Below are positions 47,855 through 60,004 of a DNA stretch of 64,000 nt, piece after piece. Each line of letters opens with the position of its first letter. The first letter of the stretch is position 1. Under the pieces are notes generated by a model. The model ran no database searches, had not been told where the DNA came from, and was given only the letters and a program-made list of their open reading frames with translations. The DNA is from Nitrogeniibacter mangrovi. GTDB taxonomy: Bacteria > Pseudomonadota > Gammaproteobacteria > Burkholderiales > Rhodocyclaceae. The stretch spans positions 434,001-498,000 of the forward strand of contig NZ_CP048836.1 in the NCBI RefSeq assembly GCF_010983895.1, read 5' to 3'. The position numbers and the translations under genes are program-made.

Positions 47855-49309
47855 CTACCGGCCGCGCGGTTGGCCCAGCGAGAGGTGGTGCGCGTGGCCG
47901 CCGGCTGGGCGGATCCGCTGGGGCGCGAGCGAGCCGGCGACGATGGCAACGAGGCCGGCGAGCATGCCGGCGAAGTGCGGCGGGATGAGGGCCTCGGGGG
48001 CGACGGCCTCGAGCCCGAGCCAGACCACGAAGCCGGTCACGATGGAGGCCAGGGCGCCCTGGGTGGTGGCGCGTTTCCAGTACAGGCCGACCGCGAGCGG
48101 GGCGAAGGCGGTGGCCAGGGTTACCTTGTAGGCATCCTCCACCATGCCGTGGATGCTCTCGTCGGTCTGCAGCGCGTACCACAGCACGAACACCGCGAAC
48201 ACCACCACGACCACGCGGTTGAGCCACAGGAACTGGCGGTCGTCGAGGCCCGAGAAGGTGTTGCGCAGGATGTTTTCGGAAAAGGTGACCGAGGGCGCCA
48301 GCAGGGTGCCCGAGGCGGTGCTCATGATCGCCGAGAGCAGGGCGCCGAAGAACATCACCTGGGCGAACAGGGGCATGTGCTGGAGGATCAGCTGGGGCAG
48401 GATCATCTGCGCGTCGGTGTCGATGTAGCGATTCATCAGCGCCGGGTCGATCAGGGTGGCGGAGTAGGCGATGAAGATGGGCACGAAGGCGAACACGAAG
48501 TAGCCCGAGCCGCCGAGGATGGAGCCGGTGACGGCGATGCGTTCGCTGCGCGCGGCGTTGACCCGCTGGAACACGTCCTGCTGCGGGATGGAGCCGAAGC
48601 CCATGGTGAGGATGCCGGCCAGGAAGGCCATGATGTCGCGCGGCTCGAAGGCGGGCAGGAAGTTGAAGCGGCCAGCGGCCTCGGCATGGGCGACCACGGT
48701 ATCCACCCCGCCGGCCATGCCGCTGACCACCCAGGCGATGTAGAACAGGCCGACGACGATGATGGTCATCTGCATGAAGTCGGTCAGGGCCACCGACCAC
48801 ATGCCGCCGAACAGGGTGTAGGCGAGCACCACGGCGATGCCGATCAGCATGCCGGTCTGGTTGGAGATCGCGCCGTCCGAGAGGATGTTGAAGACCAGCC
48901 CGAGGGCGGTGATCTGTGCCGACACCCAGCCCAGGTAGGAGATCACGATCGCCAGCGAGCACAGCACCTCCACCGTGCGCCCGTAGCGCATGCGGTAGTA
49001 GTCGCCCAGGGTGAGCAGGTTGAGGCGGTACAGCGGGCGGGCGAAGAACAGGCCGACGAGGATCAGGCACAGCGAGGCGCCGAAGGGGTCGGACCACAGG
49101 CCGCGCAGGCCCTCCTGGAGGAAGGTGGCGGAGATGCCCACCACCGTCTCCGAGCCGAACCAGGTGGCGAACACCGTGGCGGTGACGATGTACAGGGGCA
49201 GGTGGCGGCCGGCGGCCACGTAGTCGGTGGTGTTCTTGACCCGGGTGGCCGCGTACAGGCCGATGCCGATGGAAACGAGCAGATAGAAGGCGACGAAGGT
49301 CACGAGCAT
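47855..49309 (-). CDS. sodium:solute symporter family transporter
   Basis: The 484-residue protein has about 13 membrane helices and SSS-family motifs: ATRVKNTTDYVAAGRHLP, FGSETVVGISATF, GFGSIPQQDVFQRV and SAIMSTASGTLLAPSVTFSENIL, the conserved helix with sodium-site Ser/Thr. It resembles the pantothenate/proline-type branch, but the solute cannot be named. It is separated from ubiU by 161 bases containing the FNR box and is likely transcribed from its own promoter. Confidence 0.88.
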   Translation of the reverse strand: MLVTFVAFYLLVSIGIGLYAATRVKNTTDYVAAGRHLPLYIVTATVFATWFGSETVVGISATFLQEGLRGLWSDPFGASLCLILVGLFFARPLYRLNLLTLGDYYRMRYGRTVEVLCSLAIVISYLGWVSAQITALGLVFNILSDGAISNQTGMLIGIAVVLAYTLFGGMWSVALTDFMQMTIIVVGLFYIAWVVSGMAGGVDTVVAHAEAAGRFNFLPAFEPRDIMAFLAGILTMGFGSIPQQDVFQRVNAARSERIAVTGSILGGSGYFVFAFVPIFIAYSATLIDPALMNRYIDTDAQMILPQLILQHMPLFAQVMFFGALLSAIMSTASGTLLAPSVTFSENILRNTFSGLDDRQFLWLNRVVVVVFAVFVLWYALQTDESIHGMVEDAYKVTLATAFAPLAVGLYWKRATTQGALASIVTGFVVWLGLEAVAPEALIPPHFAGMLAGLVAIVAGSLAPQRIRPAGGHAHHLSLGQPRGR

Positions 49310-49500
49310 CGGGCGGATTCCTTCAGGCGGCGGTGGCGTTCGAAACGGCGGATTGTAGCGCCGACCGCGAGGGAATTGGACGGTTTTGCCGGCAAATTCC
49401 GGCGCTGGCCGATGGCGGTACCGGCGGATGCGCAGCGGTGGTGCATGTCGCACCGCCGCGGTGCGATCCGAGCGGTTTCCGGCGGGTCGGATTCAGGGCG

Positions 49501-51033
49501 TCAGGAAAGTCCCGCCAGATGCCACAGTTCGAGCGCCACCAGCGCCAGCAGCAGGGCCACCAGCCAGTTCAGGCGGCGCTGGAGGCGGCGCTGCGCCTGG
49601 GTGACGCGCGCCAGTTCGGTCCGGGTGGCGAGATCCCGGTCGTGGCTGTCGAGGGCATGGTGCACCAGGCGTGGCAGCTGGGGCAGGGTGGCGGCCCAGC
49701 CGGGTGCTTCTTCCTTGGCGTGGCGCAGCAGGGCGCGCCAACCGACCTGCTCGTTCATCCAGCGCTCGAGGAAGGGCTTGGCGGTCTTCCACAGATCCAG
49801 TTCCGGATCGAGCTGGCGCCCCAGGCCCTCGATGTTGAGCAGGGTCTTCTGCAGCAGCACCAGCTGGGGCTGCACTTCCATCTCGAAGCGGCGCGCGGTC
49901 TGGAACAGGCGCAGCAGCGTCTTGCCGAAGGAGATGTCCTTGAGCGGCTTGTCGAAGATCGGCTCGCACACCGCGCGGATGGCCGACTCGAACTCGTCCA
50001 CCCGGGTGGTCGAGGGCACCCAGCCGGCGTCGATGTGGGCCTGGGCGACGCGCTTGTAGTCACGCTGGAAGAAGGCGAGGAAGTTCTGCGCCAGGTAGTT
50101 CTTGTCGGTGTCGTTGAGCGTGCCCATGATGCCGAAGTCGAGGGCGATGTAGCGCCCATCCGCGGCCACGAAGATGTTGCCCGGATGCATGTCGGCATGG
50201 AAGAAGCCGTCGCGGAACACCTGGGTGAAGAAGATCTCCACGCCTGCCATGGACAGGGCCGACAGGTCGGTGCCTTGGGCGCGTAGCGCCTCGAGGCGCG
50301 AGATGGGGATGCCGTGCATGCGCTGCATCACCATCACCGACTTGCCGCAGTAGTCCCAGTGCACCTCGGGGACGACGAGCAGGTGTGAATCGGTGAAGTT
50401 GCGCCGCAGCTGCGAGCAATTGGCCGCCTCGCGCATCAGGTCGAGCTCGTCGCGCAGGTGCTTGGCGAACTCGGCGACCACCTCGCGCGGCTTCAGGCGC
50501 CGGCTCTGGGGCCACAGCCGGTCCAGGGCGGTGGCGGCCACGTCGAGCAGCGCCAGGTCGTGGGCGATGACGCGCTCGATGCCCGGGCGCAGGATCTTGA
50601 CCGCCACCTCGGTGCCGTCGTGGAGGACGGCGAAATGCACCTGGGCCACCGAGGCCGAAGCCACCGGCTCGCGGGTGAAGCTGGCGAACACCTCGTCCAC
50701 CGGCCGGCCGTAGAACGCTTCGAGCACCGCCACCGCCTTGTCGGTCGGGAAGGGCGGGACGCGGTCCTGCAGCAGCGCCAGTTCGTCGGCGATGTCCGGC
50801 GGCAGCAGGTCGCGCCGGGTCGAGAGCATCTGGCCGAACTTGACGAAGATCGGGCCGAGCGATTCGAGCGCCCGGCGCAGCCGCACGGCGCGCGGTTCGG
50901 CGAAGCGGCGCCAGAAGAACAGGGCGCCCCAGATACGCACGAGGGTGCCGCTCGGATCGGCGGCGAGGACCATCCGGTCAAGGCCGAAGCGCAGGCTGAC
51001 GGCAACGATTTTGGCCAGTCGGAACAGTCGCAC
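49501..51033 (-). CDS. ubiB: ubiquinone biosynthesis kinase-like protein UbiB
   Basis: The 510-residue ADCK/UbiB protein has the KxGQ motif ([12 protein letters not shown]), the Ala-rich loop [19 protein letters not shown] and LDFGIMG, and a C-terminal membrane anchor ([19 protein letters not shown]). It is an unorthodox ATPase required for ubiquinone assembly. The start is a GTG at 51033. UbiB is needed aerobically and anaerobically, so its closeness to ubiUVT is functionally consistent. It is divergent from the metacaspase gene. Confidence 0.94.
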
Positions 51034-51198
51034 GGGGGGAACGGGCAGGTGGCAAAACCGGCATTGTGCCCTTAAACCGTTTTCATGGGGTGGTGGCGCG
51101 GCGCCAGGGAAGGAGTGAACGACGCCACTGACACGCCCGGGTCCGACGGGTCAGCATACCCATGGCATCGTCCCGCGCCGCGTCGCATCGATCTGCGG

Positions 51199-51226
51199 TT
51201 GCTGGCGGGCGATCACATGCTTTAAT
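51199..51226 (+). promoter_or_regulatory. candidate sigma-70 promoter of the caspase-CHAT-M15 operon
   Basis: TTGCTG, a 16-base spacer, then TTTAAT lie 65 bases before the metacaspase start, in the 257-base gap to the divergent ubiB gene. The -10 matches five of six positions, the -35 three of six. Confidence 0.45.
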
Positions 51227-51290
51227 CAGAGAAAGACGGCGTCATGGCGGTGGTCACCTGTGCCGTGTCGCTCCGGTTCGGAGGCGGTCC

Positions 51291-52082
51291 ATGAGCAAGT
51301 CGGCGTTGTGCATCGGCATCAATGACTATCCGGGGACGGACAGCGACCTGTCCGGATGCGTGAACGACGCGCACGACTGGTCGGCGCTGCTCGACGGCAG
51401 GGGCTTTGCCGTGCGCCAGTTGCTCGACGCCGCGGCCACCAAGGCGAGCATGGTGGCGGCCATGACCGACCTGATCACCGGCGCGCGCAGTGGCGATTCG
51501 GTCGTCATCACCTATTCGGGCCACGGCACCTGGGTGCCCGACACCTCAGGCGACGAGCCCGATGGCCGCGACGAGGGCCTGTGCCCCCACGATATCGCCG
51601 ACGGCCAGGTCCTGCTCGACGACGAACTGGCCGAGCTCTTCGCCCGTCGCGACGCCGGGGTGCGGGTGGTGCTCATCTCCGACAGCTGCCACTCCGGCAG
51701 CGTGATCCGCGGTCGCGATCCGGATCTGGATCCGGCCGCGCCGCGTGCCCGTTTCCTGCCGCCGGCGCTGTGGCTGGGGGCCGATGCCCTGCCGTCCGGC
51801 GCGCCGCCGGCGCGCGTCTTCGGCGGCTTCACCCGGCTCGGCGGCGATCTGCTCCTGGCCGGTTGCCGCGATGCCGAGTTCAGCTGGGACACCCGATTCC
51901 GCGGTCGCCCCAACGGCGCCTTCACCTACTACGCGCTCAAGGCGCTCGCCGGCCTCGCGCCCGGGGCGAGCTACCTGGACTGGTTCCGCGCCATCGGCAC
52001 CTTCCTGCCCTCTACCAGCCTGCCGCAGACCCCGCAGCTGTCCGGTGCGCGGGGCGCGCGTCATTTTCCGGTCTTCGAGTGA
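51291..52082 (+). CDS. metacaspase-like caspase-family protease
   Basis: This 263-residue single-domain protein of the C14 caspase family starts ALCIGINDYPGTDSDLSGCVNDA. The catalytic dyad is intact: His78 in YSGHGT and Cys133 in ISDSCHSGS. Acidic residues flanking the cysteine resemble type I metacaspases, which cut after Arg or Lys. There is no prodomain, signal or membrane segment. CGGAGG precedes the ATG. It is followed 65 bases later by the CHAT-hydrolase gene on the same strand. It may activate, or be activated by, that protein; this is inference. Confidence 0.9.
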   Translation: MSKSALCIGINDYPGTDSDLSGCVNDAHDWSALLDGRGFAVRQLLDAAATKASMVAAMTDLITGARSGDSVVITYSGHGTWVPDTSGDEPDGRDEGLCPHDIADGQVLLDDELAELFARRDAGVRVVLISDSCHSGSVIRGRDPDLDPAAPRARFLPPALWLGADALPSGAPPARVFGGFTRLGGDLLLAGCRDAEFSWDTRFRGRPNGAFTYYALKALAGLAPGASYLDWFRAIGTFLPSTSLPQTPQLSGARGARHFPVFE

Positions 52083-52147
52083 GGCCATGATCGAACCCGG
52101 TCGACCCGGGCGCCGGCCGCCCCAACCCCGTCTCAAGGAAGCATGCC

Positions 52148-55100
52148 ATGTCCTCTGACCGTACCTATCTGCTGGCGGGGCTCGAGAGCGCCGCCCAGGC
52201 GCCGGCGACGCGCGAGGTGCGCATCACCCGTTCGCGCCGGATCCAGCCCGGGGCCGCGCGCGGCAGCCAGGCGCCGGCCGAGGTGTCCGGCGACGCCGTG
52301 CTGCGGGTGGAACTGGAAAACGGCTTCGTGCTGTGGAGCCGGGCCGACGATCTGCTGCGCGAGCGCGGGCGCCAGATCGGCCAGCGCGATGGCGAGGCGA
52401 CCTGGCAGATCGACTTCGCGCCGCGTCCCGGGCAGCCGGCGCGTGGCAGCGAGCGCGGCTGGCTGGGTCTGGGGGTGCGCCTGCTCGAGGCCTTCGGCGT
52501 GGACCTGTCCGGCAAGGCCGCCGGCGCCCTCGGGCGCTCGCTCGAGGACAAGCAGCTCAAGGACGCGCCGCCGGGGCTGTACCGCTGCGCGCTCGGCGCC
52601 AATGCCCAGGGCGATCCTGGTCTCCAGCCGGCCTGCGACATCGGTGCGGAGAGCTCGCCGCTGCTGGTCTTCATCCATGGCACCGGATCGAGCACCGCCG
52701 GCAGCTTCGGCGCCCTGTGGCGCGACGACAACGCCGCCGGCGCTGCCCTGCGCCACCGCTTCGAGGCGCGCTACGGCAAGCGCGTGTTCGCGCTCCAGCA
52801 CCGCACCCTCACCGAGAGTCCGATCCACAACGCGCTGGCGCTGGCCACGGCGCTGCCGGCCGGGGCCGAAGTGCATCTGGTCAGCCATTCGCGTGGCGGC
52901 CTGGTGGGCGAGCTGATGTGCCTGGGGATGCGCGACCCGGACCTCGATCCGTTGTCGCCGGCGCTGATCCAGACCCTGTTCGCTGCCGACCGCTGCATGG
53001 CCGAGCAGCTCGGCCTGGCGCGCCTGGACGACTCGGCCGCGAAGGCCCGCGATGCCGCCTACGCGGCCGACCGGGCGGCGCTGCTCGAGCTACTCGAGGT
53101 GTTGCACACCAAACAGCTGCGCATCACCCGCTTCGTGCGCGTGGCCTGCCCGGCGCGTGGCACCACCCTGGCCTCGGGGCGGCTCGACCGCTGGCTGTCG
53201 GTGCTCGATTTCATCGCCGGCAACGGCATCTTCGGCGACGCCCTCGACTTTCTCCTCGCGGTGGTCAAGGAGCGCACCGACCCGCGCACCCTGCCGGGCC
53301 TGGAGGCGATGATGCCCGGCTCCGCGCTCACCCGCCTGCTGCAGCATCCGGATCTGGTGACTGCGGCGGACCTGTCGGTCATCGCCGGCGACACCGAGGG
53401 CGATTCCCTGTGGAGCCAGATCAAGCTGCTCGCAGCCGACTGGTTCTACGGCTCCGACCACGACCTGGTGGTCAACACCGGCTCCATGATGGGTGGGCTG
53501 CGGCGCGTCGAGGGGCACGCCCGTTTCCTGCGCGACGAAGGCGGACAGGTCAATCACTTCCGCTACTTCACCAACGAGAAGACGGTGCGCTGGCTCTCCA
53601 ACGGCCTGCTGCGCACCGACGAGGGCGACGGCGGCTTCCAGCCCATCGCCCTGGCGCCGGTGGAGACGCCGCGCTGGCGCGAGGCCCTGGCGCGCAGCCG
53701 CGGCGGCACCGCGCCCAAGCCGCTGGTGGTGATCCTGCCCGGCACCATGGGCAGCGCCCTGCAGCAGCAGGGCGAGACCGTGTGGCTCGACTACTGGCGC
53801 TTGTTGCGTGGCCAGCTCAGCCGGTTGCGGGTCGGTCAGCCGGCGGTCGAGCCGGTGGATCTGATCGGCGACTTCTACGGCCCGCTGGTCGAGTTTCTCG
53901 CCCGCAGCCACCGGGTGGAGATCTTCCCCTACGACTGGCGCATGTCGGTGCGCGAGGCCGCCGCAAGGCTGGCCGACGCGCTCGAACGCTGGCTGCCCGA
54001 CCTGGAACGCAGCGGCCAGCCGGTGCATCTGGTGGCCCACTCCATGGGCGGGCTGGTGGTGCGCGCCATGATCGCCGACGGCGGCCCCGGCGCGGCCATC
54101 TGGCAGCGCATCGTCGCCCTGCCCAACAGCCGTTTCATGATGCTCGGCACCCCCAACCGCGGCTCCTACGAGGCGGTGCGCTGGCTCACCGGACTCAACG
54201 CGACCGAGCGCAAGCTGGCCTTGCTGGACCTGACCAAGAACACCGACGACATCATCGACATCGTCGGCCGCTATCCCGGTCTGGTCGAGCTGCTGCCCTT
54301 CGCCCCCGACGATCCGGACTTCACCGAACCGGCCCTGTGGAAGGCGCTCAAGGCCGAGCTCGAGGCCACCTGGCCGGTGTCCGGCGCCGGCGTGCTGCGC
54401 GCCGCGCGCCCGACCTGGTCGCGTCTGCTGGCCGGGGCGATCGATCCGGACCACATGGTGTATCTGGCCGGCTGCCAGGAGGCGACGGTCACCGGCTACC
54501 GGGTCGAGCCGGCCAACGACTGGGACTGGCCGCCGCGCCGCAAGCTGGTCTTCGACGCCACGGCGGAGGGCGACGGCACCGTCACCTGGGCCTCCGGGCG
54601 CCTGACCGGGGTGCCCACCTGGTACGTGGAGGACACCGCCCACGATGCCCTGTGCACGCAGACGCGCGCCTTCCCCGGGCTGCTCGATCTGCTCATGACC
54701 GGCACCACCGACCGCCTGCCGGCCAACCCGCCGCGGGCGCGTGCCGGCGTGCCGGCGCGCTTCGTGCTGCCCGAGCCGCCGTTCACCGACGATCTGCCCG
54801 ACGCGGCCGCGGTCAGCCGCTTCGGCTTCGGCGGCGGTCTGCCGGCCACCGCCGAGGGCGGCCTGCCGGTGGCGCCGCGCATTCGCGTCAGCGTGCGCCA
54901 TGGCGATCTGGCCTATGCCCGCTATCCGGTGGTGGTGGGGCACTATGCCGGCGACGCCATCGTCAGCGCCGAGGCCGCGCTCGACTACCGCCTCGACCAT
55001 GCGCTGTCGCGACGCCTGCGCCTGGGCATGTACCCGGCGGCGCCCGGCTCGCACGCCCTGTTCTTCAACGAGGTGCCCGACGCCCGGCCACAGGGCGCGG

Positions 55101-57607
55101 TGGTGGTCGGCCTCGGCCAGGTGGGTGAGCTGCGCCCCGGCCTGCTCGAGGGCGGCGTGCGCACCGCCGTGCTCGATTTCGCCCTGCAGGTGGCGCAATG
55201 GCCTGACGACCACCGCTTCGGGCCCGCCGCGGCGCCGCGCTCGGCGGCGCTCAGCTGCCTGCTGGTGGGCACCGGCGCCGGCGGCATGCCGGTGAGCGCC
55301 GCGGTCGAGGTGATCCTGCGCGCGGCCGTGTCCGCCGCCGACAAGCTCACCGAGCAGGGGCTCGAGAACCGGGTGGTGATCGACGAGATCGAGTTCATCG
55401 AAATCTACGAGGACGTGGCCATCAGCGCCTCCGAGGGCATCGAGCAGGCCCTGCGCGACGGCGAGCTGAGCGCCCGCGTCGAATGGCCGGACCGCAACAT
55501 CCAGACCGGCCAGGGGCGCCGCCGCCGGGTGCGTTGCGACGAGCAGCCCGAATGGTGGCATCGCCTCGAGATCATCGAGGAGGAGGGGCGCCGGGCGCTA
55601 CGCTTCATCTTCGCCACCGACCGCGCCCGCGCCGAGGAGACCCTCATGGCCGGCCAGCTCGAACTGGCCGACGCCTTCATCGCCCAGGCCTCGCGTTCGC
55701 CGGCGGCCAACAGCGAAGTGGCCAAGACCCTGTTCGAGATGCTCCTGCCCAACAGCCTCAAGGCCATGGCCCCCAACCAGTCGAACATGGTGCTGATGCT
55801 CGATGCCTGTTCGGCGCGCTATCCGTGGGAGCTGCTCGAGAACCGCTGGGGCGCGATCAACCGCCCGCCGGCGGTGGCGGCCGGGCTGGTGCGCCAGCTC
55901 AAGGCGCGCGAGTTCCGCCACCAGCCCCTGCACAGCACCAGCGCCAAGGCCTTCGTGGTGGGCAACCCGGATCTGGGCGGGTGGGCGAGCTTCCCCGACC
56001 TGCCCGGGGCGCGCCGCGAGGCGGAGGAGGTGGCGGCCATGCTGCGAAGCGGTGCCTTCGATGTGCGCGAGAGCGTGGACGAGCGGGCCGACGCGATCCT
56101 CGCCGGCCTGCATCGCGATGCCTGGCGCATCCTCCATCTGGCCGGCCACGGCGAGCACGAGTATCCCCTCGGCGAGGGCAAGGACGGCACGCCGCGCACG
56201 GTCTCCGGCATGGTCATCGGTCGCGACGCCTTCCTCACCCCGGGCGACGTGGAGCAGATGCGCTGGGTGCCGGAGGTGGTGTTCATCAACTGCTGCCATC
56301 TGGGCAAGACCCAGACGAGCGGATCGAGCGCCTACACCACCCTGGCGGCCAACCTCGCCGTGCAGTTCGTGAACATGGGGGTCAAGGCGGTGGTGGCCGC
56401 CGGCTGGGCGGTGGACGACGGCGCCGCCAGCGCCTTCGCCGCCAGCTTCTATCGCCACCTGCTCGACGGCCAGGCCTTCGGCGACGCGGTGCGCGCGGCG
56501 CGCGAGGTGGTGTGGGCCAACTTCCCCGGCGTCAATACCTGGGGCGCCTACCAGTGCTACGGCGATCCGAGCTATCGCCTGCGCGGCGAGGGCAGCGCGC
56601 CGGTGAGCCGGCCGCCGCAACCGTTCTTCGCCCCGGCGGAGCTGGTGACCGCGCTGGGCAACCACCTGGAATGGATCCGCATGCAGATCCAGCACGACGG
56701 CGAGGACCCGGCGCGCCTGGCGCGGATGCGCGACGGCATCGGCCACCTGATCGCGCGAGTGCCTGAGGACGTGCGCGAAGGCTGGCTCGCCCGCGCCGAC
56801 GTGGCCGCCGCGCTGGGTTTTGCCTGGGGCGAGACCGGCGCCTACGCCGAGGCCATCGACTGGCTGGAGAAGGCCATGCGGCTGGACACGGGCGACTGCC
56901 CGGTGCGCGCGGTCGAGCAGTGCGCCAACTTCAAGGTGCGCCTCGCCGGGCACGAGTGGGCGAGCCTGCGCCGTACCGACGGGCTGGATGAGAGCGCTCG
57001 CGACGAGCTCATCGAACGCATCGAGTCGGCGATCATGGAACTCGACCTGATCTGCCAGCGGGCGCCCACCTCCGAGCGCTACGCCTTGCTCGGCAGCGCC
57101 TGCAAGCGCCTCGCCTGGGTGCATGAACACCGCACGCCGCGCCGTGAGGCCCTGATCAACATGGCCAACTACTACCGCCTCGCCGGTCAGCTCGAGACCG
57201 CCGGCGGCCAGCCGCCCGGGGCCTACGCGTTCAGCAACCAGGCCCTGGCCGAGGTGCTGGTGGCGATGATGGACAAGGCTGCCGGGCTCGACGATGCCTG
57301 GCTGGCCGATTGCGACGCCATGATCGAACGCACCCGCGCACGCAACGAACTGAACCCCAACGTCTGGGACGCCCTGGGCGAGGCCGACTGCCTGCTGGTG
57401 CGGCTGCTGGCACGGCCGCCGCGGGGGCGCCTGCTGCGCAGCGAGGCCGAGCAGATCGGCGCTGCCTACCGGCTGGCGCTCATGCGTGGCGCCAGCCCGC
57501 GCGAGCGCACCACGGTGGTCGAGCACCTCGATTTCGTCGTTGCCCTGTGCGGCGATGCCCGGCGCACGCTGCGCGATGCGCTGGCGCTGATCCGTTCGGC
57601 CCTGTGA
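52148..57607 (+). CDS. giant multidomain protein: two alpha/beta hydrolases, CHAT protease, TPR-like C-terminus
   Basis: 1819 residues. Residues about 168-480 are an alpha/beta hydrolase with FIHGTGSS (from H177) and SHSRGG (Ser248). Residues about 525-830 are a second, LCAT/PGAP1-like one with LPGTMGS (from 530), YDWRMS and AHSMGG (Ser632). Residues about 880-1060 form an alpha/beta domain (VVVGHYAGDAIVSAEAALD, VVVGLGQVGELRPG), loosely like the M17 aminopeptidase N-terminal domain. Residues about 1150-1480 are a CHAT caspase-like protease with the hallmark PWELL (1226), catalytic His1334 (LAGHGEHE) and Cys1383 (NCCHLG). The last 300 residues are helical with a TPR-like repeat near 1555. No signal or membrane segment is visible. 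The M15 gene follows ten bases later. Confidence 0.88.
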   Translation: MSSDRTYLLAGLESAAQAPATREVRITRSRRIQPGAARGSQAPAEVSGDAVLRVELENGFVLWSRADDLLRERGRQIGQRDGEATWQIDFAPRPGQPARGSERGWLGLGVRLLEAFGVDLSGKAAGALGRSLEDKQLKDAPPGLYRCALGANAQGDPGLQPACDIGAESSPLLVFIHGTGSSTAGSFGALWRDDNAAGAALRHRFEARYGKRVFALQHRTLTESPIHNALALATALPAGAEVHLVSHSRGGLVGELMCLGMRDPDLDPLSPALIQTLFAADRCMAEQLGLARLDDSAAKARDAAYAADRAALLELLEVLHTKQLRITRFVRVACPARGTTLASGRLDRWLSVLDFIAGNGIFGDALDFLLAVVKERTDPRTLPGLEAMMPGSALTRLLQHPDLVTAADLSVIAGDTEGDSLWSQIKLLAADWFYGSDHDLVVNTGSMMGGLRRVEGHARFLRDEGGQVNHFRYFTNEKTVRWLSNGLLRTDEGDGGFQPIALAPVETPRWREALARSRGGTAPKPLVVILPGTMGSALQQQGETVWLDYWRLLRGQLSRLRVGQPAVEPVDLIGDFYGPLVEFLARSHRVEIFPYDWRMSVREAAARLADALERWLPDLERSGQPVHLVAHSMGGLVVRAMIADGGPGAAIWQRIVALPNSRFMMLGTPNRGSYEAVRWLTGLNATERKLALLDLTKNTDDIIDIVGRYPGLVELLPFAPDDPDFTEPALWKALKAELEATWPVSGAGVLRAARPTWSRLLAGAIDPDHMVYLAGCQEATVTGYRVEPANDWDWPPRRKLVFDATAEGDGTVTWASGRLTGVPTWYVEDTAHDALCTQTRAFPGLLDLLMTGTTDRLPANPPRARAGVPARFVLPEPPFTDDLPDAAAVSRFGFGGGLPATAEGGLPVAPRIRVSVRHGDLAYARYPVVVGHYAGDAIVSAEAALDYRLDHALSRRLRLGMYPAAPGSHALFFNEVPDARPQGAVVVGLGQVGELRPGLLEGGVRTAVLDFALQVAQWPDDHRFGPAAAPRSAALSCLLVGTGAGGMPVSAAVEVILRAAVSAADKLTEQGLENRVVIDEIEFIEIYEDVAISASEGIEQALRDGELSARVEWPDRNIQTGQGRRRRVRCDEQPEWWHRLEIIEEEGRRALRFIFATDRARAEETLMAGQLELADAFIAQASRSPAANSEVAKTLFEMLLPNSLKAMAPNQSNMVLMLDACSARYPWELLENRWGAINRPPAVAAGLVRQLKAREFRHQPLHSTSAKAFVVGNPDLGGWASFPDLPGARREAEEVAAMLRSGAFDVRESVDERADAILAGLHRDAWRILHLAGHGEHEYPLGEGKDGTPRTVSGMVIGRDAFLTPGDVEQMRWVPEVVFINCCHLGKTQTSGSSAYTTLAANLAVQFVNMGVKAVVAAGWAVDDGAASAFAASFYRHLLDGQAFGDAVRAAREVVWANFPGVNTWGAYQCYGDPSYRLRGEGSAPVSRPPQPFFAPAELVTALGNHLEWIRMQIQHDGEDPARLARMRDGIGHLIARVPEDVREGWLARADVAAALGFAWGETGAYAEAIDWLEKAMRLDTGDCPVRAVEQCANFKVRLAGHEWASLRRTDGLDESARDELIERIESAIMELDLICQRAPTSERYALLGSACKRLAWVHEHRTPRREALINMANYYRLAGQLETAGGQPPGAYAFSNQALAEVLVAMMDKAAGLDDAWLADCDAMIERTRARNELNPNVWDALGEADCLLVRLLARPPRGRLLRSEAEQIGAAYRLALMRGASPRERTTVVEHLDFVVALCGDARRTLRDALALIRSAL

Positions 57608-57617
57608 GGAGGGAGCC

Positions 57618-58187
57618 ATGAAAGATCGCAGCAAGGACGCCCTCGAAGGCTTTCACGTCGCGCAGTTGCAGCCGCGGGATCTGGTCAGCCCCAACTTTCG
57701 CGCCTACGAGCTGAACCGCTCGATGCTGGCCGCGCGTCAGGGCATCGACAACGGCTTCGCCTCCGACGACATCCTGCGCGCGGCCGTGCATCTGGCGCGC
57801 GAGGTGCTCCAGCCGGTGCGCGACGCCTTCGGCGCGTTCTCGCCCAACAGCGTCTATCGCAGTCAGGCCCTCGAGCGGGCGCTGAAACATCGCCCCGCCA
57901 CCTGGATCAGCACCAGCCAGCATACCGCCGGCTGCGCCTGCGACATCGAGATTCCGGGCATGGCGACGCTCGACCTGGCGCGCTGGGCGGCGGCGCACCT
58001 GGCCGACTTCGATCAGATCATCTGCGAGTGTTACGACCCGCGCCTGGGGCCGAACGCCGGCTGGGTGCACATCTCGCTGCGGGCCCCCGGGACGGGCGAG
58101 AACCGGCGCAACGAACTGAGCTACATCCGCCATCCGGACTCGGGGCGCATGGTCTACGTGAGCGGCCTGCGCGCCACCGTGGCCTGA
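57618..58187 (+). CDS. M15A-type zinc peptidoglycan peptidase without signal peptide
   Basis: The 189-residue protein carries the M15 zinc ligands: H102 and D109 in SQHTAGCACD (the SxHxxGxAxD motif) and H151 in GWVHISL, with the conserved VYRS substrate-loop Arg at about 81. Relatives are D,D-carboxypeptidases or phage endolysin-type peptidases acting on the peptidoglycan stem. No signal peptide or membrane anchor is present, so it would stay cytoplasmic until released or exported. GGAGGGAG precedes the ATG, ten bases after the CHAT gene stop, indicating one transcript. Confidence 0.87.
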   Translation: MKDRSKDALEGFHVAQLQPRDLVSPNFRAYELNRSMLAARQGIDNGFASDDILRAAVHLAREVLQPVRDAFGAFSPNSVYRSQALERALKHRPATWISTSQHTAGCACDIEIPGMATLDLARWAAAHLADFDQIICECYDPRLGPNAGWVHISLRAPGTGENRRNELSYIRHPDSGRMVYVSGLRATVA

Positions 58188-58220
58188 GCCGGCGGTTGGG
58201 AGAAGATGCGCCGAGCCTTG

Positions 58221-58226
58221 TATAAT
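58221..58226 (+). promoter_or_regulatory. -10 box of the argS promoter
   Basis: A perfect TATAAT lies 30 bases before the argS ATG, in the gap after the M15 gene. A weak -35 (TTGGGA) is 19 bases upstream. It marks the boundary where core-gene transcription resumes. Confidence 0.6.
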
Positions 58227-58255
58227 CCCGCGTTTCGTTTGCTTTTTCTGTGGCC

Positions 58256-59989
58256 ATGAGCGCTGACCCCAAACTCCACCTCGTCGACCTGCTGCGCGCC
58301 GCGCTCAAAAGCGTGGCGCCGGACCAGACCGGGGTGGCCATCGCCCTTGAGCGGCCCAAGCAGGCCAGCCACGGTGATTTTTCCGCCAACCTGGCGATGC
58401 AGCTGGCCAAGCCGCTGCGCCGCAGCCCGCGTGACCTGGCGCAGATGCTGGTGGCCGAGCTGCCCGCTTCCGAGCTGGTGAGCAAGGTCGAGATCGCCGG
58501 TCCGGGCTTCATCAACTTCACCCTGGCCTCGGGGGCCAAGACCGGCATCGTCCGGACCGTGCTCGAACAGGGCGAGGCCTTCGGCCGCGGTGCCGACAAG
58601 GACGTGAGCGTGCAGGTGGAGTTCGTCTCCGCCAATCCCACCGGCCCGCTGCACGTGGGCCATGGCCGGGGGGCGGCCTACGGCGCCTCGCTGGCCTCGG
58701 TGCTCGATTTCGCCGGCTTCAAGGTGGCGCGCGAGTACTACGTGAACGACGCCGGGCGGCAGATGGACATCCTCGCCACCTCCACCTGGCTGCGCTACCT
58801 GGCCTTCTTCGGCATCGAGGTGCCGTTTCCGCCCAACGGCTACCAGGGCGGTTACGTGATCGACATGGCGCGCGAGATCCGCGACGGCCACCAGGACCGC
58901 TTCGCCCGGGTGACGGCCGATCAGGTGCTCGCCGGCGTGGTCGATGTCGAGGCCGACAAGGAAGACCACCTCGACGGCCTGATCGCCAATGCCAAGGCCC
59001 TGCTGGGCGAGGACTACGCCTGGATCCACGACTTCGCCCTCGCCGAACAGCTCGGCGACTGCCGCGAGGATCTGCAGGAATTCGGCGTGTGCTTCGACAA
59101 GTGGTTCTCGGAGAAGAGCCTGTTCGACACCGGTCTGGTCGAGCGTGCCGTGGCCGAACTGGACAAGCGCGGCCACATCTACGTGCAGGACGGCGCCAAG
59201 TGGTTCCGCTCCAGCCATTTCGGCGACGAGAAGGACCGGGTGGTGCAGCGCGAGAACGGGCTGTTCACCTACTTCGCCTCCGACATCGCCTACCACCTGA
59301 ACAAGTACGAGCGCGGCTTCGATCGCATCATCGACATCTGGGGCGCCGATCACCACGGCTACATCCCGCGGGTGCGCGGGGCGATCGCGGCGCTCGACCT
59401 GCCGCCCGAGAAGCTCGAGGTGGCGCTGGTGCAGTTCGCGGTGCTCTATCGCAACGGCCAGAAGGCGGCCATGTCGACCCGCTCGGGCGAGTTCGTGACC
59501 CTGCGCGACCTGCGCAAGGACGTGGGCAACGACGCCTGCCGCTTCTTCTACGTGCTGCGCAAGAGCGACCAGCACCTGGACTTCGATCTCGACCTGGCCA
59601 AGAGCCAGACCAACGAGAATCCGGTGTACTACATCCAGTACGCCCATGCCCGCGTGTGTTCGGTGCTGGGCCAGTGGGGCGGTGTCGAGCGCGATCTGCT
59701 CGAGGTCGATCCGGCGCGGCTCGAATCGGAGCGCGAACTGGGGCTGTGCGCCCGGCTCGCCGCCTTCCCGGAAGTGGTGCAGTCGGCGGCGGCCGACTAT
59801 GCCCCGCACCAGATCGCCTTCTATCTCAAGGATCTGGCCGGTGACTTCCACAGCTGGTACAACGCCGAACGGATGCTGGTGGAGGACGAGGCACTGAAGA
59901 TGGCGCGCCTGGCCCTGGCCGCCGCCATCCGCAACACCCTGGCCAACGGCCTGCGTCTGCTCGGGGTTGGCGCCCCGACTTCCATGTAA
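58256..59989 (+). CDS. argS: arginine--tRNA ligase
   Basis: The 577-residue class I synthetase has the N-terminal tRNA-recognition domain (HGDFSANLAMQLAK), the HIGH-equivalent HVGH in NPTGPLHVGHGRG, and the KMSKS-equivalent region AAMSTRSGEFV. The C-terminal helical anticodon-binding domain ends with LRLLGV. The start is ATG 58256 (GTG 58250 is possible). It has its own -10 box, so it is probably not part of the caspase-CHAT operon. Confidence 0.97.
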   Translation: MSADPKLHLVDLLRAALKSVAPDQTGVAIALERPKQASHGDFSANLAMQLAKPLRRSPRDLAQMLVAELPASELVSKVEIAGPGFINFTLASGAKTGIVRTVLEQGEAFGRGADKDVSVQVEFVSANPTGPLHVGHGRGAAYGASLASVLDFAGFKVAREYYVNDAGRQMDILATSTWLRYLAFFGIEVPFPPNGYQGGYVIDMAREIRDGHQDRFARVTADQVLAGVVDVEADKEDHLDGLIANAKALLGEDYAWIHDFALAEQLGDCREDLQEFGVCFDKWFSEKSLFDTGLVERAVAELDKRGHIYVQDGAKWFRSSHFGDEKDRVVQRENGLFTYFASDIAYHLNKYERGFDRIIDIWGADHHGYIPRVRGAIAALDLPPEKLEVALVQFAVLYRNGQKAAMSTRSGEFVTLRDLRKDVGNDACRFFYVLRKSDQHLDFDLDLAKSQTNENPVYYIQYAHARVCSVLGQWGGVERDLLEVDPARLESERELGLCARLAAFPEVVQSAAADYAPHQIAFYLKDLAGDFHSWYNAERMLVEDEALKMARLALAAAIRNTLANGLRLLGVGAPTSM

Positions 59990-60004
59990 CCTGAATCGGG
60001 AATC

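Follow-up and report, generated by a model that had tools for sequence, protein, structure and literature searches.

Between ubiB and argS of Nitrogeniibacter mangrovi, three genes encode a metacaspase, an 1819-residue protein that fuses two alpha/beta-hydrolase domains to a macro fold, a CHAT protease and a TPR/TPR-S domain, and a phage-type M15 peptidase (Table 1). The stretch analyzed, referred to as the window, comprises 64,000 nucleotides (contig NZ_CP048836.1, positions 434,001 to 498,000). That the three genes form an immune-type suicide-lysis cassette is the likeliest of the explanations weighed and is judged to have an even chance of being right. The case in its favor draws on the genes themselves, the folds predicted for their products, catalytic sites conserved among relatives, a neighborhood that is both conserved and exchangeable, and hydropathy without an export signal. 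CHAT and caspase-type proteases are established triggers of bacterial programmed cell death, for example with gasdermins and Csx29.

Operon layout and protein domains

The genes, called with an in-house codon-usage script, are complete and co-directional, with 65 bases between the metacaspase and the giant gene and 10 bases between the giant gene and the M15 gene. An earlier sequence-only reading had described this layout, a position between divergent ubiB and argS, and intact active sites in the metacaspase and the M15 peptidase. The layout is present and uninterrupted, NCBIfam equivalog matches bear out both flanks, and domain scores and residue counts among relatives agree with the active-site assignments. 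Its starting point of 51199 did not hold; the caspase start is most likely the ATG at 51291, with GGAGG just ahead, and the numbering of His78 and Cys133 fits that start. For the giant protein, its list of two alpha/beta-hydrolases and a CHAT protease with His1334 and Cys1383 is right as far as it goes, with Pfam and the conservation in 73/73 aligned proteins in agreement, and it had named neither the TPR-S domain nor the macro fold.

No caspase gene besides that of the metacaspase turned up in the genome, where the remaining C14 match comes from the CHAT domain of the giant protein, and the giant protein holds the only TPR-S match of the genome, which argues that their adjacency is not chance. 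Chance adjacency was also rejected on near versus far gene counts around the giant genes of relatives, given below. By domain score and His/Cys dyad the first product is a C14 metacaspase, with the dyad kept in each of 57 caspase genes from the loci retrieved (near-identical loci, collected along two routes, are among these 57 and among the 44 M15 genes below). Its best solved structural relatives are GSU0716 and Metacaspase-1, and no membrane-like segment was found in it. Assignment to the EACC1-associated caspase subfamily was rejected (NF047832, 28.3 bits against a cut-off of 140). Caspase matches on plasmids number 97 records, each below 60% identity.

Two AlphaFold2 half-models of the giant protein, both cut at residue 870, have a mean predicted local distance difference test score (pLDDT) of 83.9 and 86.3 (51 diverse proteins were picked for folding, of which 50 and 48 were used). 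Structures were compared by VIA-align, re-ranking Foldseek matches, with residues 1-515 barely covered. Four Pfam families exceed their cut-offs: DUF7379 (E 7.5e-31), LCAT (E 3.6e-7), CHAT (E 1e-29) and TPR-S (E 7e-11). At the three catalytic sites, two of hydrolases and one of CHAT, 70-73 of 73 aligned proteins retain the residues, counted with giant proteins below 1700 residues left out and identical ones taken once. Ser248, Asp439 and His470 of the first hydrolase occur in all 73, as do His1334 and Cys1383 of the CHAT domain; the triad and borders of the first hydrolase are an assignment from this conservation plus the model. The predicted fold and Ser-Asp-His triad of the second place it with the lysosomal phospholipase A2 (PLA2)/LCAT type. 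Domain score, His and Cys, and a separase/Csx29-like model fold identify the CHAT protease. The macro-fold domain resembles in fold macroH2A/PARP14 as well as the N-domains of leucyl aminopeptidases. By domain score the C-terminus belongs with the TPR-S proteins, its sensing role being putative; TPR-S is said to go back to Burroughs et al. in 2015. PADLOC returned only SAVED_CHAT for the giant protein (E 7e-4). Neither a plasmid origin (seven plasmid records of about 33% identity at E 1e-20) nor a phage origin (no phage match at E 1e-10) found support.

The M15 product matches the endolysin family phrog_894 of PHROGs (E 2e-25) and 112 phage records, of which the 20 listed share 30-41% identity. 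His102, Asp109, Glu137 and His151 are present in 43 of 44 M15 genes, the remaining one having a gap, and a simple hydropathy scan found no signal-like or hydrophobic segment in the protein. By these residues, the lack of a signal peptide and the endolysin-family match, it classes as a phage-type M15 endolysin. The genome has two M15_3 matches, the other of which carries an apparent twin-arginine leader. A comparison of the M15 protein with solved structures gave no match at E 0.01.

Table 1. Features of the operon and its flanks (positions in the window)
Feature	Position	Strand	Basis
ubiB, divergent flank	49501..51033	-	NCBIfam UbiB equivalog, 830 bits vs cut-off 667
15-base block CATGCTTTAATCAGA upstream of caspase	51216..51230	+	Identical in 7/7 aligned upstream regions of close relatives; single occurrence in 4.24 Mb genome
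Metacaspase (Peptidase_C14), 263 residues, His78/Cys133	51291..52082	+	Pfam C14, E 7e-23, 81.9 bits vs cut-off 21.4
Hydrolase-lipase-macro-CHAT-TPR protein, 1819 residues	52148..57607	+	Open reading frame, Pfam, two AlphaFold2 half-models
Alpha/beta-hydrolase 1 (DUF7379 family), Ser248-Asp439-His470, residues about 125-490	52520..53617	+	Pfam DUF7379; conservation
Predicted phospholipase domain, lysosomal PLA2/LCAT/Tle4 type, Ser632-Asp809-His832, residues about 520-855	53705..54712	+	
Arg865 codon in otherwise variable linker between lipase and macro domains	54740..54742	+	Arg in 73/73; next residue Ala or Gly in 64/73
Macro-fold domain, residues about 909-1109	54872..55474	+	Predicted fold
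CHAT protease, His1334/Cys1383, residues about 1132-1482	55541..56593	+	Pfam CHAT, 104 bits vs cut-off 24; fold
TPR/TPR-S sensor-type helical domain, residues about 1490-1819	56615..57604	+	Pfam TPR-S, 43.1 bits vs cut-off 27.6
Phage-type M15_3 peptidase, endolysin-like, 189 residues	57618..58187	+	Pfam Peptidase_M15_3, E 1e-6, over cut-off
argS, co-directional flank, 62 bases downstream of operon	58250..59989	+	NCBIfam argS equivalog, 427 bits vs cut-off 262

Recurrence and exchange of the partner genes

Within the family of the window, the giant protein was matched in 70 of 199 genomes at E <=0.001, some over the CHAT part alone, and the flanks at 40 places hold a caspase like that of the window in 18, a similar M15 gene in 8 and all three genes in 7. 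The scan of named genomes kept the best 80 of at least 575 relatives and therefore favors close ones. Conserved co-occurrence of the trio, which the sequence-only reading had proposed looking for in other genomes, was found there: 66 of these named loci show both flanks and carry a giant gene no shorter than 1600 residues, and they divide into 23 with the full trio, 12 with just the caspase, 8 with just the M15 gene and 23 with neither. A partner more than 350 bases away was scored as absent in these counts, as for the L106 caspase, 505 bases upstream. The partner genes lie on the same strand as the giant gene with gaps of -14 to 295 bases, often -4 for M15, whereas of 661 genes at the 80 loci that do not adjoin it, one is an M15 and none a caspase. 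Rhodocyclales, Burkholderiales and Chromatiales are among the 29 loci with all three genes, which represent 13 upstream contexts.

Around the 109 distinct giant proteins taken together, 413 genes are near (no more than two genes from the giant gene) and 730 are far; caspases account for 54 of the near and 0 of the far ones, and lysin-type genes for 53 and 0. The corresponding counts are 19 near and 6 far for TIR, and 32 and 11 for DRT/SLOG-like genes, where the "DRT" label combines our own interpretation with a match to a TIR effector in PADLOC (E 1e-7). Near neighbors supplied the profiles for caspase and M15 as well as the references for TIR, SLOG, GH19, GH46, M15_4 and the 381-residue type; the near counts therefore take in the reference genes too, and far members that are distantly related may have been missed.

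The 53 loci with a lysin-type gene within two genes carry M15_3 (39), the 381-residue type (6), M15_4 (4), GH46 (2) and GH19 (2). Two of these genes (L050 and L139) are on the opposite strand, and that of L055 is cut by a contig end and has no Pfam or PHROGs match. Phage endolysin families are matched by the replacement lysins M15_4 in L112 (phrog_17001, E 3e-85; its Pfam match is below cut-off) and GH19 in L059 (E 7e-73). For GH46 and the 381-residue type, the link to wall cutting comes from the family name and from peptidoglycan-binding domains (in L051 and in a relative in L125); the GH46 genes, in L051 and L052, stand upstream of the caspase. No membrane-like segment was found in any of 44 M15_3 genes or of 7 other lysin-type genes checked. 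The 381-residue family, which has no Pfam match and is weakly phrog_30036-like, replaces M15 directly downstream in five loci (e.g., L032:5113-6258). A relative of this family with a peptidoglycan-binding domain lies upstream in the L125:2110-3072 region.

A FastTree phylogeny of 109 proteins, with long branches (giant proteins below 1600 residues were left out of the tree and its counts, identical ones taken once), requires minimum changes of 14 for the caspase, 9 for M15 and 18 for signal genes. Comparison of caspase and CHAT identity to the window indicates that the caspase moves between CHAT clades. Eight loci, with L040 left out, have a CHAT protein 31-34% identical to that of the window, with a caspase 64-71% identical in seven and 55% in L057; L040 has 35% for CHAT and 38% for caspase. 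At 23 loci with CHAT 51-57% identical the caspase is just 51-56% identical, and at 8 others with CHAT at 56-57% it is 62-66%. By these sequence comparisons caspase and M15 are exchangeable and not obligatory. An obligatory trio was rejected on the 23/66 count above and on the lack of demonstrable co-variation (see below).

Conflict-type companions

At 41 of the 109 loci a TIR- or SLOG-like gene is at most three genes away from the giant gene. TIR genes stand beside it in L036, L032, L028, L071 and L112; caspase, giant gene and TIR gene form a row in L071, and a clostripain accompanies M15_4 and TIR in L112. Further, L037 has a patatin and a TPR-S protein adjoining, L043 TIR and ThsB-like genes, and L094 a PLD gene. 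An Azotobacter plasmid relative has methyltransferase, restriction and Fic genes in its vicinity, on the other side of a recombinase gene. The association with defence islands that the sequence-only reading had raised is thus borne out in part, by the conflict-type genes beside some relatives; the window's own locus, at ubiB/argS with the giant gene fixed in the genus, is not a defence island.

Several additional arrangements were observed. After the CHAT gene in L097 (12477-18281), SIR2-like/TIR, nSTAND and TPR-S-patatin genes follow in succession, and in L062 (12603-18495) an AAA gene (MoxR-like reading), a vWA gene and a 957-residue CHAT gene lie directly upstream of the caspase-giant CHAT pair, so that two conflict-type systems adjoin. 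The genome of the window also encodes a second CHAT protein (L002:814-3480; G000:C1 about 3824291-3826957), in which 889 residues with TIR, CHAT and two LysM stretches join TIR, protease and wall binding. In Dechloromonas, Azonexus and Rhodoferax, many cassettes have a further gene behind M15 or the giant gene, often 3 bases away, for a protein of about 513-528 residues. Copies include those at L083:13156-14718, L117:12435-14000 and L118:13201-14769, and the three N-termini compared look alike; the L083 and L117 copies, and another in L085, have an N-terminal membrane-like segment, and those of L083 and L117 have no Pfam match.

Proposed mechanism and rival explanations

In the suicide-lysis mechanism proposed, the giant protein would be dormant, its C-terminal half (macro fold, CHAT, TPR/TPR-S) sensing stress or a nucleotide-derived signal that would switch on proteolysis by the giant protein itself and with the metacaspase. 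A cut, possibly at Arg865 between the lipase and macro domains, would free or activate the two N-terminal hydrolases, and the one with the lysosomal phospholipase A2/Tle4 fold would rupture the inner membrane from the cytoplasmic side. The M15 peptidase, which has no signal-like segment and would be kept in the cytoplasm, would then get to the peptidoglycan and the cell would lyse, the lipases playing holin and the captured phage-type lysin endolysin. We infer the trigger, the order of events, the cleavage site, the lysis and an anti-phage benefit. A broader proposal is held tentatively, with the balance tilted against it: unrelated phage endolysins (M15_3, M15_4, GH19, perhaps GH46 and the peptidoglycan-binding/phrog_30036 type) would have been captured repeatedly under a caspase/CHAT-controlled, holin-replacing phospholipase, the macro fold may sense a signal of ADP-ribose type that TIR-like enzymes produce, and activation would occur at the invariant arginine.

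Several observations weigh against a suicide-lysis cassette of the immune type. Anti-phage cassettes are usually patchy. The giant gene is present in 10/10 genomes of the genus, own included; in the nine others the protein is 71-78% identical (one is split over two contigs), and Denitromonas are the close named relatives. All 8 distinct loci read at the site (the window, four same-genus genomes and three named records) are at ubiB|argS, a stable locus here and not a mobile island. The giant CHAT gene is under purifying selection, with nonsynonymous divergence (dN) from the window of 0.16-0.22 and synonymous divergence (dS) of 0.53-0.78; the dN of argS is 0.07-0.12. Co-variation of caspase and M15 was not demonstrable (13 independent pairs, median p 1), with M15 changing in the same direction in 1.1 pairs, in the opposite direction in 0.1 and showing no difference in 11.8. 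None of caspase, signal gene or lysin was found at 28 of the 109 loci, patatin shows no enrichment (3 near, 5 far), and the four genes on each side of the window's giant gene gave no TIR- or SLOG-like match. Additionally, the "SLOG" label is a YAcAr match below cut-off (17.8 vs 28.2), and the "SIR2" label in L097 is likewise below the Pfam cut-off. Lastly, Arg865, a candidate activation cleavage site, is invariant even at loci without an adjacent caspase, and the residue may therefore be structural or cut by CHAT itself; pLDDT is low near it in both half-models, possibly an end effect because both models end or begin at residue 870.

Genus-wide presence, constant site and purifying selection make a domesticated lysis programme a serious rival, in which the same machinery, fixed in the genus, would serve regulated autolysis (release of DNA or enzymes in flocs and biofilms, or of gene-transfer or phage-like particles). 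The block CATGCTTTAATCAGA, conserved upstream and occurring once in the genome, counts in favor of this rival and perhaps resembles an extended -10 promoter element; a sigma-70 consensus scan found no promoter, and an Rfam search over 49000-60000 gave no match. A precedent is LypABC, an immune-like protease system co-opted for lysis in Caulobacter (PMC13236601). The ongoing swapping of caspase, lysin and signal genes in relatives fits conflict better than housekeeping, and domestication is considered rather unlikely. Conservation across the genus between housekeeping genes would also suit a quality-control or envelope-maintenance complex, whose proteases and lipases would turn over damaged proteins and lipids and whose M15 would recycle peptidoglycan, with no death. 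Since M15 lacks an export signal by hydropathy, however, the wall of an intact cell would be out of its reach, and other endolysin-type enzymes and TIR partners stand near the giant genes of relatives, which leaves this the least probable of the explanations weighed. Alternatively, the genes may not be one system: the giant CHAT-lipase would act alone, CHAT acting on its own hydrolases, with caspase and M15 as separate cargo at the same places. The loci with one partner or neither, the lack of demonstrable co-variation and the 28 loci without any partner type are in keeping with this, whereas the same-strand neighbors at short gaps and the near versus far counts of caspases and lysins are not, and separate cargo is regarded as improbable.

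Relation to known systems

Literature searches gave no description of a fused hydrolase-CHAT-TPR-S form joined by lysins, in line with the sequence-only reading, which knew of no system with exactly this set. According to Kaur et al. 2020 (PMC7159879), the caspase domain of VMAP systems always occurs with a neighboring alpha/beta-hydrolase gene, effectors are exchangeable, and peptidoglycan attack was suggested for NucA-trypsin systems. The caspase-hydrolase pairing is therefore already known; in the available portion of another eLife paper from the same group (PMC8195603), neither TPR-S nor M15 is mentioned. The locus shares that pairing and the exchangeable effectors with MoxR-vWA-VMAP systems and differs in the fusion of its hydrolases to CHAT and TPR-S and in the phage-type lysins that join them. 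A MoxR-vWA-VMAP ternary system was rejected, judged at the immediate flanks: the operon has no MoxR, vWA or VMAP gene and its immediate neighbors are ubiB and argS. Compared with Type III-E CRISPR Craspase/Csx29 (TPR-CHAT), CHAT here is fused to lipases and precedes the TPRs, and no gRAMP/Cas7-11 gene was found in the operon, flanked directly by ubiB and argS (operon only, no genome-wide search).

In Type IV Thoeris a TIR signal activates a caspase-like protease (as cited in PMC12847820). The operon likewise has a caspase-like protease, and L071 the row described above, but the effector set is another one, and assignment to Thoeris type IV was rejected for want of a TIR-reference match among the four genes on each side of the giant gene. 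LypABC, whose immune-like proteases are needed for host-cell lysis in Caulobacter, has CARD, NLR and trypsin-type parts (PMC13236601), whereas the three proteins here belong to other families. The likeness to phage holin-endolysin pairs is a signal-less phage-type endolysin that would need a membrane breach; there is no holin gene in the operon, and phospholipases would substitute. The second hydrolase resembles Tle4, lysosomal phospholipase A2 and LCAT in predicted fold and Ser-Asp-His, but is fused to a protease and is probably cytoplasmic, not a secreted effector. The locus is viewed as a new variant of the predicted CHAT/TPR-S/TIR conflict systems, its fused form joined by lysins being the part for which no description was found.

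If the suicide-lysis reading is true, bacterial caspase-like proteases would have a second killing route besides gasdermin pores, in which a controlled phospholipase attack is combined with a borrowed phage lysin. Large CHAT/TPR-S proteins, which genome surveys have predicted to be conflict proteins without an effector mechanism, would gain a concrete role, and the analysis provides residues at which this role can be tested directly.
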